This document shows positions 13,422 through 41,049 of a stretch of DNA of 64,000 bases, in pieces. Location: positions 124,001 through 188,000 of the forward strand of contig NZ_JAAMPF010000036.1 in assembly GCF_011074795.1 (NCBI RefSeq). The letters run 5' to 3'. The DNA comes from Marinobacter salicampi (GTDB lineage Bacteria > Pseudomonadota > Gammaproteobacteria > Pseudomonadales > Oleiphilaceae). Position 1 is the stretch's first letter, and the number at the start of each line of letters is the position of its first letter. A model generated the notes under the pieces. The model ran no database searches and was not told the DNA's origin. It saw only the letters and a program-made list of their open reading frames with translations. The position numbers and the translations under genes were made by a program.

Positions 13422-13706
13422 TCAGGTCTCGGTATTTGACGAGGCTTCGTTCAGCAACTCCGGCTTCTTGAGGGCCCGGGCAAAAAGGTCTTTCTCTTCA
13501 GCAATGGCCAGAGCACATTGCTCGGCCAGTTCTTCGGACAGACCACTGACGCGTTTCTGCAAAAACACGGTCACTTCCTCCGACAGCTCCAGGATGCGGT
13601 CACGGGCATCGGCCTCGGCCTTGGAGGAAAACAGCATCTTGTCGGCATTTTTCAGCGCCATTTCCAGCCCGTCCCTTTCCGAGTAATAAAGTGCTTTAAC
13701 TGCCAT
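13422..13706 (-). CDS. yebG: YebG-family SOS protein
   Basis: A 94-residue cytoplasmic protein. The start MAVKALYYSERDG and the central pattern of an ADARDRILELSEEV-like helix followed by an acidic helix match the YebG family, a small protein induced by DNA damage in Escherichia coli whose molecular role is unclear. A longer reading starts at 13760, but the ATG at 13706 has a CCGGAG Shine-Dalgarno sequence and gives the family-typical N-terminus. A near-consensus LexA box lies 74 nt upstream, which fits the family's known SOS control. Confidence 0.85.
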   Translation of the reverse strand: MAVKALYYSERDGLEMALKNADKMLFSSKAEADARDRILELSEEVTVFLQKRVSGLSEELAEQCALAIAEEKDLFARALKKPELLNEASSNTET

Positions 13707-13779
13707 GCATTGAATCTCCGGTGGGTTACCGGACACAGGCGTGCCGGTAAGACAGTTCATTCAGGACGGCAGTGTATCA

Positions 13780-13799
13780 TACTGTTTTTATATACAGCA
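13780..13799 (-). promoter_or_regulatory. LexA box upstream of yebG
   Basis: TACTGTTTTTATATACAGCA (plus strand) fits the gammaproteobacterial SOS consensus TACTGT-N8-ACAGTA with only the last base positions imperfect; CTGT and ACAG are spaced by exactly eight bases. A TATGAT hexamer read on the minus strand abuts it, as expected for a LexA-repressed promoter. Confidence 0.85.
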
Positions 13800-24393: not shown

Positions 24394-24547
24394 TGTTACC
24401 GGGTCTCGCTTGTTCTGGCGTTATTGTCTTGTTGTGCAATTCTCGTTTGGTTCAGTCTAGCGGAATGCAGTCACGGATGCTGAACTCCCGACCGATACAT
24501 TAGTTGGAAGGCCGCGCCCTTGACCACCCGTACCCACTCAGCCAGAC

Positions 24548-24567
24548 TACTGTCTAAATATACAGTT
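24548..24567 (+). promoter_or_regulatory. LexA box upstream of the HExxH protein gene
   Basis: TACTGTCTAAATATACAGTT matches the SOS box consensus TACTGT-N8-ACAGTA, with CTGT and ACAG spaced by exactly eight bases and an AT-rich centre. It ends 3 nt before the ATG at 24571. Confidence 0.8.
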
Positions 24568-24570
24568 TTC

Positions 24571-25329
24571 ATGAGCAGCATGCCCCAGGTCCAGCCCATC
24601 AGTTTTATCACCATCAGGCGCCGGTTTGACTTTCGCAGTATAGAAATCGGGCGCTGGGTAACGGAGCCCGAACGTGACCGGGCTGCGGTCCTGTTCTACC
24701 AGGCCCTGTGTGATCTGATGGGTCTGCTGCAGGCACCGGAAAAACTGATTTCGTTACGGCAGAACCTGGGGCTGCAATATGGTATTGGCGGCAGGCCAGG
24801 GGTCTCAGCTCACTATATCCCCGCGACAAGGCAACTGGCGCTGGCCAAGAACGCCGGGGCCGGAAGCCTGGCCCACGAATGGTTCCACGGATTTGACCAT
24901 TATATCGCCGGCAAGGCTTTCCCCGGCAGCCCTGGCCAGACCTTTGCCAGCAAGGCCTGGATAAACAGCCGGACCATGAGTCCACACCCCCTGAACACCT
25001 TGTTGGCGGAGTGCTTCAAGGCGATCCTCCTGAATAAAAAGGGCACCGACCCCAGCGAGCTTTTCCTGTGCTCGCGACAGGCGGACCGGGCCTGTGGGGT
25101 GCTCTACTACGCCAGGCCGGAAGAGCTGGCGGCCAGGGCTTTTGAAGCCTTTGTGGAGGATGCCCTGCCACATAACCGGTTTCTGGTCTCGGGAAGCCGG
25201 TTTTCCCGGGAAGCGAAGGAGGGGCTTTACCCACAGGGAGAGCAGCGTGGGCGAATCAATGGCGCCTTTGGCCGATACTTCGCAACGCTGGGAGCCGCAC
25301 TTTATCGACAGCAGGGCAAAGCCGGGTAA
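24571..25329 (+). CDS. Predicted HExxH metallopeptidase-like protein (CLCA_X/LPD1-like), LexA-controlled
   Basis: A 252-residue cytoplasmic protein with no signal peptide. The zinc-protease motif HEWFH at residues 102-106 is followed by GFDHY, and ELAARAFEAFVEDAL near 190 supplies a candidate third ligand and helix; this pattern recalls the LPD1/CLCA_X metallopeptidase-like families. The reading frame extends to a TTG at 24520, but a LexA box at 24548-24567 would then lie inside the gene, so the true start is probably at 24571 or the next ATG at 24580. The very short leader is odd. SOS control suggests a role after DNA damage. Substrate unknown. Confidence 0.65.
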   Translation: MSSMPQVQPISFITIRRRFDFRSIEIGRWVTEPERDRAAVLFYQALCDLMGLLQAPEKLISLRQNLGLQYGIGGRPGVSAHYIPATRQLALAKNAGAGSLAHEWFHGFDHYIAGKAFPGSPGQTFASKAWINSRTMSPHPLNTLLAECFKAILLNKKGTDPSELFLCSRQADRACGVLYYARPEELAARAFEAFVEDALPHNRFLVSGSRFSREAKEGLYPQGEQRGRINGAFGRYFATLGAALYRQQGKAG

Positions 25330-25383
25330 GGTTTCAGGGTATGATTGGGCACGTGTTCGGCCCGCTCATGATTGGAACCGGTT

Positions 25384-26073
25384 ATGAATCGCAGACAGAA
25401 ACTCGCCCAGTGCCTCGGATGCTTCCTGGTACTCTTCCTTATACTCCCGTCTGCTCAGGCCCGGGAGAGCAGTGACCGGTGGCACGATCTGCGTTCCGCC
25501 TTTGAACGCGGGGCCAGCCATGGCACTGCCTGGAGCGTCGGCTGGGGCTCGGTCTATGGTATTTCCCTGGCCCACAGTGTCTATGTAATCCAGGATCCCT
25601 CGGATTCTGAAGCACGGCTGGACGCCCAGGTGGCCGGAGTCAAATCCGCTCTGGCCTTGGCAGAGACATTTCTGAGTCCACAACCCCATGCAGAGGCTCT
25701 TGAACGGTTTAACCGGCTGGCTGACGAAGGCGACCCGGAGGCGCTGAAGCAGGCAGAGCAGCTAAGGGCTGAGGTGGCAGCAGAAGAGCGCCGGCTTCGC
25801 AGCCTGGATGCCCGCATTCGCCCGCTGGTGGTCAACCTGCTCGGCGGCCTGGTCATTGCCATCGGAGATGACCGCCCGGGCGACGGCGCGATCAGTTTCG
25901 CCACCGGCATGCTGGTCAACGAACTCACCCTCTGGAGCCAGCCCAGGTCGCTTTCCCGCCTGGGAGCCGCACCCGGAGGCGAGCTGAGCCTGCAGATGGG
26001 CAGGGGCCGGCTTGACGTGCAGTACAGCTGGTACGTCAGCCCACAGCAGGCGGGTTTGCAGGTCAGGTTCTAG
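25384..26073 (+). CDS. Secreted or membrane-anchored protein of unknown function
   Basis: A 229-residue protein I do not recognise. A signal peptide or anchor spans residues 1-27 (CLGCFLVLFLILPSAQA). A conserved-looking GTAWSVGWGSVYGISLAHSV segment follows, then a charged alpha-helical, coiled-coil-like stretch (about 95-140, rich in Glu, Arg and Ala), then a Gly-rich hydrophobic segment near 145-175 and a beta-like C-terminus ending in Phe. The terminal QVRF could suggest an outer-membrane-associated protein. It follows the LexA-linked gene by 54 nt and could be cotranscribed with it. Confidence 0.6.
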   Translation: MNRRQKLAQCLGCFLVLFLILPSAQARESSDRWHDLRSAFERGASHGTAWSVGWGSVYGISLAHSVYVIQDPSDSEARLDAQVAGVKSALALAETFLSPQPHAEALERFNRLADEGDPEALKQAEQLRAEVAAEERRLRSLDARIRPLVVNLLGGLVIAIGDDRPGDGAISFATGMLVNELTLWSQPRSLSRLGAAPGGELSLQMGRGRLDVQYSWYVSPQQAGLQVRF

Positions 26074-26128
26074 CAGCGCCATTGCTTACCGGCGGCTCTT
26101 CGTGACCAAAGCAGCCTACCTCTGGTGC

Positions 26129-40323: not shown

Positions 40324-41049
40324 ATGTGCGGATATATCCGCCGCGTCACAGACAGCCCTGAAGTGGGAAATCTTCTGGAAGAAATCGGCCTTGGGGATCT
40401 GGTTCCGCCACTTTTCCGCCAGGCCCCCGGGGAAATGGAACACTTCTACCCGGCATTCGGCGGCAACGCAGAGCGCCGGATTCGTGGGCTGATCATCGCG
40501 GATGAAGGGCGGCCACGCCTGGTGGACGCAACCTGGTGGTTTGATTGTGTGGCCAGGGACGACCGGCTCGAAGTGGGCAAGCGGACGACCTTCAACGCCA
40601 GGAACCTCGATTCGCCCTTCTGGCGGGAACCCCTTCGCCATCACCGCGGCATTGTGGTGGCGACCGGTATTGGCGAATCCAAAAAAATTGGAGGGCGAAA
40701 GCACCAGTACCTGATGGAAGGGACCCGGCCCTTCCTTCTTGGTGCGTTATATTGCCCTTTCCCGAATGGGCAGTTCAGCTGCGCGGTTATAACCCGTGAT
40801 GCCCACCTCAAGTTCGAGTCCTACCATGACAAGGCCTTTCCGCTGTTTCTGCCACCGACGCCGGAGTTCGTGGACCTGTGGCTGGACGAGACGATTACCC
40901 AGGCCCGGGAAATCGACCAGCTGCTTGAGCATCCCAGGCTATATGCGAATCTGGAAGTCGAGGAAGTGAAAACCTTTAAGAACGGCACAGTTTCACCCGT
41001 CGCCACTTTGCTTGAGGCTGATGAAGAAGGGGATCTTGCCCACCCATAA
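40324..41049 (+). CDS. Divergent SRAP/HMCES-like DNA-protein crosslink protein
   Basis: A 241-residue protein of the SOS-response-associated peptidase family (YedK/HMCES), which shields abasic sites by bonding Cys2 to DNA. It starts MCG, giving the required Cys2 after Met removal. TTFNARN supplies the Asn of the NAR motif, GIGESKK aligns with GFYEWK and keeps the Glu, and SYHDKAFPLFL keeps the catalytic His, though flanking residues differ from E. coli YedK. It is a diverged, possibly functional paralogue. It stands alone downstream of an AT-rich region. Confidence 0.78.
   Translation: MCGYIRRVTDSPEVGNLLEEIGLGDLVPPLFRQAPGEMEHFYPAFGGNAERRIRGLIIADEGRPRLVDATWWFDCVARDDRLEVGKRTTFNARNLDSPFWREPLRHHRGIVVATGIGESKKIGGRKHQYLMEGTRPFLLGALYCPFPNGQFSCAVITRDAHLKFESYHDKAFPLFLPPTPEFVDLWLDETITQAREIDQLLEHPRLYANLEVEEVKTFKNGTVSPVATLLEADEEGDLAHP

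Follow-up and report, generated by a model that had tools for sequence, protein, structure and literature searches.

The stretch of DNA analysed here, referred to hereafter as the window, comprises 64,000 nucleotides of Marinobacter salicampi (contig NZ_JAAMPF010000036.1, positions 124,001 to 188,000). A LexA box, TACTGTCTAAATATACAGTT, occupies positions 24548-24567 of its plus strand and agrees with the E. coli consensus at 17 of 20 positions. Three bases separate the end of the box from the ATG of a plus-strand gene (24571-25329, ATG to stop) that encodes a gluzincin-like protein of 252 aa matching the NCBIfam model NF041907 (CLCA_X; 331.3 bits against a cut-off of 260, model positions 12-249 of 250). 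The active-site helix segment HEWFHGFD (residues 102-109, encoded at 24874-24897, plus strand), containing H102, E103, H106 and D109, was defined by residue conservation. The glutamate-helix segment EELAARAFEA (residues 184-193, 25120-25149, plus strand), with E185xxA188, was defined by conservation and a model helix, and an LPD1 domain (PF18796; 81.4 bits, cut-off 27) spans residues 172-243 (25084-25299, plus strand). An earlier note on this DNA had claimed a near-perfect LexA box directly before the gene and a protein with HEWFH and an ARAFEAF helix; the box was confirmed, and both motifs are present in the translation (residues 102-106 and 188-194).

Because the box ends so close to the ATG at 24571, translation may instead begin at the ATG at 24580; the family-conserved part of the protein starts at about residue 10. 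Judged by eye from the N-terminus, the protein may be cytoplasmic. The gene directly downstream (25387-26073, plus strand), which may be co-transcribed with the CLCA_X gene, encodes a protein of 228 aa that, judged by eye, starts like a signal peptide and that has no Pfam or NCBIfam match. A promoter scan of 24400-26100 returned no sigma-70-like site on the plus strand, and no inverted repeats were found at 24400-24620 at the search settings used.

The sole other site in the window that scores 17/20 lies at 13780-13799, upstream of yebG (13422-13760, minus strand; PF07130, 72.7 bits). The gene yebG is a known SOS gene, and its site provides an internal positive control. When the window was shuffled 20 times (mononucleotide), the best scores reached 13-14 of 20, compared to 17 in the real sequence. 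The loose pattern CTGT-N8-ACAG occurred twice versus 0.83 expected, which is within chance, and it was rejected as evidence. An SRAP-family gene lies at about 40507-40974 on the plus strand (PF02586, 50.7 bits, cut-off 27.1), so that both yebG and SRAP are in the window as previously reported; the window scan found no LexA-like site of at least 14/20 near the SRAP gene. A regular expression for SRAP (MCGR/MCGM) had no match while the Pfam profile found the gene, which makes the expression a poor test.

Across the 4.35-Mb genome, the strict pattern ACTGT-N8-ACAGT occurred at 4 places, compared to 1 for the backward control. The four sites precede umuDC (UmuD 144.9 bits, cut-off 110; UmuC 518.5 bits, cut-off 431), imuA (222.3 bits, cut-off 150), a PA0069-family radical SAM gene (477.8 bits, cut-off 360) and the CLCA_X gene. 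The radical SAM gene, behind the site at 347146-347163 of contig C10, is a hypothetical equivalog without a named function. In M. salicampi umuDC is on contig C8 and the window on contig C30; the CLCA_X gene stands alone, apart from umuDC, and is not a member of that operon. RecA-driven self-cleavage of LexA frees LexA-repressed promoters. It is very probable, from the sequence, that LexA binds the box before the CLCA_X gene and that the gene is induced by damage.

Family, active site and predicted fold

The CLCA_X family was described in 2013 by Lenart et al. as predicted zincin-like and common in phages and plasmids, and its founding sequence was a Marinobacter protein of 260 aa (PMC3650047, in the part available to us). 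The earlier note had called the family functionally undescribed. The family and the prediction of its zincin nature are already in print under this name, and the view of the family as undescribed is not supported; no functional assay was found in the available part of the paper, the main text of which contains no mention of LexA or SOS. D109 lies three residues past the second His of HExxH, which is the HExxH-then-Asp arrangement of CLCA_X, although the motif as printed in the available part of PMC3650047 has the Asp one residue later.

Conservation was read from an alignment of 70 rows, hand-picked for spread, that consists of the window protein, 35 of the best 80 genome loci and 34 of the best 80 viral loci and leaves out L076 and L119 (a stop codon in the stretch) as well as L141. 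All 70 rows had H102, E103, H106, D109, E185, A188 and R189, and 69 of them had E192. The same residues, E192 included, were invariant in the 60 branch copies of the genus sample described below, and residue 110 was His in just 39 of the 70 rows. The His and Glu residues of the site are thus conserved throughout the family, and the metallopeptidase-type pattern noticed earlier is supported by HExxH in every row and by the Pfam LPD1 and NCBIfam CLCA_X matches, LPD1 being matched in 70 of 70 rows (E up to 0.1).

Gluzincins combine HExxH with a glutamate-helix of the form (E,H)xx(A,F,T,S,G), and Spartan has a third His instead of the Glu (PMC7213743, the ArdC paper, in the part available). E185xxA188 matches the glutamate-helix motif in 70 of 70 rows. 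Glu185 is likely the third metal ligand, and we call the protein gluzincin-like because this likely ligand is the Glu of an ExxA motif. It stands at the start of the ARAFEAF-bearing helix that was singled out earlier and not within ARAFEAF.

In the AlphaFold2 model, a confident one (pLDDT 89.7, pTM 0.89), the HExxH helix comprises residues 100-116 and the second helix residues 183-197. The closest solved fold among the best 50 entries of the VIA search was that of the protease domain of anthrax lethal factor (Z 9.4, about 180 residues, rmsd 4.2-8.0), a modest margin because a Z of 7-8 is usual for models that match nothing clearly; PPEP-2 was matched at Z 8.4 (147 residues, rmsd 3.5). Foldseek gave a best E of 0.02 and nothing at E 0.001, and the family profile had no match at E 1 to the sequences of solved structures. 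Lethal factor and PPEP, the best solved-fold neighbours, are gluzincins of about 11-17% identity to the CLCA_X protein. They are secreted, whereas CLCA_X has no toxin-like delivery part; the likeness is one of fold alone, and nothing points to CLCA_X being a secreted toxin. No separate DNA-binding domain was found in the protein, which is basic (net charge +10, pI 9.66; the branch median is +4 and the lowest value -3). Metal-dependent proteolytic activity is probable.

The likeness to Spartan/SprT and Wss1 is in the damage context and the HExxH, and Foldseek listed Wss1 with weak matches (5xbv, E 0.88; 5xbn, E 1.3). Unlike Spartan, CLCA_X has the invariant Glu185, the presumed ligand, in place of the third His. 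This replacement, together with the absence of PF10263 from the window protein (E up to 1) and from the 70 rows (E up to 0.1), led us to reject membership of the SprT/Spartan family, in agreement with the earlier view that the two differ. SprT/Spartan was also absent from the best 50 VIA entries, an absence that excludes nothing.

A stand-alone CLCA_X protein scored over the cut-off in 3 of 369 sampled genomes of the class, the M. salicampi genome included, and in 26 of 58 near relatives, all 26 of them within the genus. Among 120 Marinobacter genomes (a sample that overlaps the named-organism set used below and is not independent of it) there were 95 full-score matches; 84 genomes held a full-score copy and 36 were without one. 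No DNA match was found in E. coli genomes, and matches occurred in 278 plasmid records. On the viral side, 191 stretches were confirmed as relatives, of which the best 80 span 26-46% identity, and the relatives include a DdrB-like phage gene. The relatives from phages lie within very large proteins (PHROGs profiles of 1028-2900 positions), which agrees with the polyvalent proteins described by Iyer et al. in 2017, in which such proteases are predicted to process the polypeptide (PMC5512222, in the part available). LPD1 and HExxH with the Glu helix are common to CLCA_X and the polyvalent-protein zincins of that paper, that of phage P1 DdrB included, and the window protein is 30-39% identical to the 34 aligned viral rows. 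Unlike those zincins, CLCA_X is here a stand-alone cellular protein of 252 aa that has a LexA box and lacks other domains on which it could act in cis. Four genomes of the genus (G012, G031, G470 and G484) carry a match inside frames of 1821-4042 aa. Mutual exclusion of phage-type and cellular copies was considered and rejected, as three of these four genomes also hold a full cellular copy. The protein thus appears to be a gluzincin of mobile-element type that Marinobacter-like bacteria have brought under SOS control.

Box retention and gene neighborhoods in relatives

A strict box was defined as CTG-N10-CAG with at least 14/20 agreement to the consensus. The full-score matches of the genus sample were divided by bit score, in a hand count, into a branch of 60 matches (at most 352 bits) and a sister branch of 35 (at least 362). 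A tree of 80 named rows (79 of the best 80 loci plus the window; L076, which has no open frame, was left out) separated the branch (60 rows) from the sister branch (20 rows) with an SH-aLRT of 99 in a quick search, and the score split agrees with the tree for the named loci.

LexA control of the gene was supported at the sequence level by a box upstream of 52 of the 60 branch copies in the genus sample. In 40 of these the box was directly upstream (-14 to -125), and in the other 12 it lay before the preceding umuD, about 463 bases up, so that the box of these 12 copies is that of a umuD, as in UmuDC (Pol V) operons. In contrast, the box was present at 0 of 29 readable copies of the sister branch (31 of its 35 matches examined, 2 unreadable). 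Of the eight boxless branch copies, two have a contig end inside umuD (L289, L308), one is a broken CLCA_X copy in two fragments (L348) and one has an IS1595-type element inserted inside the box (L292). L344, L290 and L319 have no more than a degenerate site (14, 13 and 12 of 20, respectively), and L312 has no site (best 11/20). A truncated copy of 157 aa in G034 (L059), below the family cut-off and entering no count, still has an 18/20 LexA box.

The named-organism set consisted of the best 80 of 447 relatives plus the window. A strict box was found within -600 to +30 at 35 of these 81 loci, compared to an expectation of 0.55 based on how often the box occurs in the remainder of these sequences. 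In a narrower count, 22 of 80 CLCA_X loci (the best 80 of 447) had a box versus 15 of 594 other ORFs, and 6 of those 15 belonged to one neighbor family that is divergent from CLCA_X and shares its upstream region. The 35 boxed loci were 31 from Marinobacter and one each from an Oleiphilaceae MAG, Marinomonas spartinae and Pseudomaricurvus, plus the window; the Pseudomaricurvus box is at -296 and its locus is outside the branch. Eight Marinobacter loci were boxless (two with a contig end, one with an insertion, one degenerate, one bare and three from the sister branch), as were 19 Marinomonas loci (in one, an insertion interrupts the box) and a further 19 loci from Halomonas, Vreelandella, Halovibrio, Zobellella, Oceanisphaera, Marinobacterium, Marinospirillum and Halopseudomonas. 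Among the plasmid records, the four copies read (one Marinobacter, three Vibrio) had no box. Conservation of the box in orthologues, which the earlier note had regarded as decisive, thus holds for close relatives and fails for the sister branch and for most copies of other genera. Because these copies are without a box, SOS control is, on present sequences, a trait recruited, or kept, mainly in the Marinobacter lineage, and it therefore says little about the ancestral job of the family.

CLCA_X was directly upstream of umuC at 11 of the 37 UmuC places that scored over the cut-off in the 120 genomes (the one in G030 is cut by a contig end). Unlike standard UmuDC operons, those around 10 of the 60 branch copies have CLCA_X embedded as a third gene between umuD and umuC. 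All 9 downstream junctions examined read GGATGA, in which CLCA_X and umuC overlap by ATGA, and by coordinates the upstream junction with umuD is an ATGA overlap as well. Seven of the 60 branch copies precede an Mre11-like and then a Rad50-like gene within about 50 bases; SbcD-type and Rad50-type profiles match this pair below their cut-offs. SRAP, a protein that crosslinks to abasic sites, is encoded at most 0.6 kb after umuC at both M. segnicrescens copies and at L058, and 2.2 kb after umuC in M. litoralis (PF02586, 116.2 bits). Several loci have lost part of this arrangement. L336 has kept umuD and CLCA_X with umuC reduced to its first codons, L300, L309 and L337 have kept umuD and CLCA_X with no detectable umuC, L333 has kept CLCA_X and the box with a umuC remnant, and in L319 umuC is broken. 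That the gene outlasts its partners in decayed loci argues, at the level of sequence, that CLCA_X is not merely an accessory of UmuC or UmuD.

Two other neighbors were observed. A small protein with an HExxH (HFHELVH) and no Pfam match adjoins umuD-CLCA_X-umuC at L047 (8025-8513, minus strand; G013). At three sister-branch loci (L032, L034 and L036) CLCA_X adjoins an integron integrase, identified in L032 by TIGR02249 (408.7 bits, cut-off 265) and in the other two by clustering with the L032 protein; a LexA box lies before the integrase, and not before CLCA_X, in L032 and L036.

Proposed function and alternatives

We propose that LexA represses the CLCA_X gene as part of the SOS regulon and that the product of the gene would be a stand-alone metalloprotease of gluzincin type, derived by domestication from the protease part of phage and plasmid polyvalent proteins. 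RecA-driven cleavage of LexA would free the box, and CLCA_X would be made with, or at the same time as, UmuDC/Pol V and ImuA, and in some relatives alongside the Mre11/Rad50-like pair. The enzyme would then cut proteins that obstruct damaged DNA, whether crosslinked or tightly bound, at stalled forks or ends, and removal of the obstacle would allow lesion bypass by Pol V or end processing by nucleases to proceed. This full chain, in which a LexA-repressed domesticated gluzincin removes proteins that obstruct damaged DNA, is the most probable single function, with a probability of roughly 0.38. Its target class, proteins stuck on damaged DNA, is suggested by the company that the gene keeps; that CLCA_X acts on DNA-associated proteins in damage tolerance is a tentative proposal that we place somewhat below even odds. 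Against obstacle clearing, the nearest solved folds are secreted peptide-cutting enzymes and not DNA-dependent proteases, the fold matches are modest, no separate DNA-binding domain was found, the family is rare and mostly boxless outside the branch, the gene stands apart from umuDC in M. salicampi, and this genome has its own SprT-like gene, elsewhere than CLCA_X. A narrower version, in which an SOS-induced, non-SprT protease for DNA-protein crosslinks came from phage polyvalent proteins and was wired into umuD-X-umuC or Mre11/Rad50-like operons, is doubtful; if true, it would be a bacterial counterpart of the coupling between Spartan crosslink proteolysis and translesion synthesis.

The position of the gene between umuD and umuC, with overlapping stop and start codons that suggest coupled synthesis, would also suit a regulatory SOS protease that sets the timing of mutagenic synthesis by trimming or degrading UmuD, UmuC, LexA, RecA or a subunit of the replisome. 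Such a role has a precedent in IrrE/PprI of Deinococcus, a gluzincin that acts on its damage-response repressor (PMC7213743, in the part available). However, umuDC is on another contig without CLCA_X in M. salicampi, CLCA_X survives at loci without an intact umuC or umuD (L300, L309, L333, L336 and L337), and a box of its own lies directly before the gene in 40 of 60 copies; by analogy with IrrE the regulatory role is conceivable, but we consider it unlikely. The homologous domains within large phage and plasmid proteins point in a different direction, to genome conflict: a domesticated protease, made as SOS wakes prophages, might cut phage polyvalent proteins or host restriction enzymes, the latter amounting to restriction alleviation at the time of SOS. 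Polyvalent proteins are thought to counter host defenses (PMC5512222, in the part available), and 3 of 10 sister-branch loci have the gene next to an integron integrase. Yet an unsystematic look at the neighbors noticed no restriction or defense genes adjoining CLCA_X, none of the PADLOC families matched the protein at E 0.01, phage-type and cellular copies coexist without exclusion, and ArdC does not need its protease site for antirestriction (PMC7213743, in the part available), leaving genome conflict a rather unlikely account.

The patchy presence of the gene (3 of 369 class genomes, 84 of 120 genus genomes), the intermixing of umuDC-linked and solo copies on the tree and the tendency of umuDC loci themselves to decay and multiply would all be expected of a passenger that came to lie behind strong SOS promoters and is induced with no part in damage tolerance. 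Two observations make this improbable: the catalytic residues are intact in 60 of 60 branch copies, and the box is kept in 52 of 60 across diverse neighborhoods, including copies without their former umu partners. That the box is a chance match, or belongs to a neighboring gene, is very improbable. A divergent gene does share the intergenic region in some relatives (the one family that accounts for 6 of the 15 boxed control ORFs), but the gene across the box varies between loci and the frequency of the box is far above expectation in the genome, the genus sample and the named loci.

Prior literature and an insertion element in the box

CLCA_X proteins have been named since 2013, and no job for them was found in the literature searched. 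Among the matches listed, mostly outside subscription journals, no link of CLCA_X to SOS or umuDC was found, and its SOS membership and placement in umu operons appear to be new. An RNA-seq study of Marinobacter atlanticus used a RegPrecise-based set of 44 predicted LexA genes (PMC8233155, in the part available), and the SOS membership of CLCA_X may already be listed there. The place of the gene in the SOS regulon, and in the Pol V operon of some species, is a strong functional lead. If CLCA_X cuts proteins on damaged DNA, bacteria would have put a dedicated protease under LexA beside their translesion polymerases, and phage polyvalent proteins would have been the source of a LexA-controlled protease.

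A minor observation concerns the box itself. An IS1595-type element lies inside the CLCA_X LexA box in two genera, at about 4900-5955 of L105 (Marinomonas spartinae; PF12762) and at about 4907-5987 of L110 (Marinobacter sp. ELB17), whose transposase clusters with that of L105. Possibly the element prefers LexA boxes. Part of the box is repeated on both sides of the insertion in L105 and L110, and in a second M. spartinae strain (L111) the box is intact.
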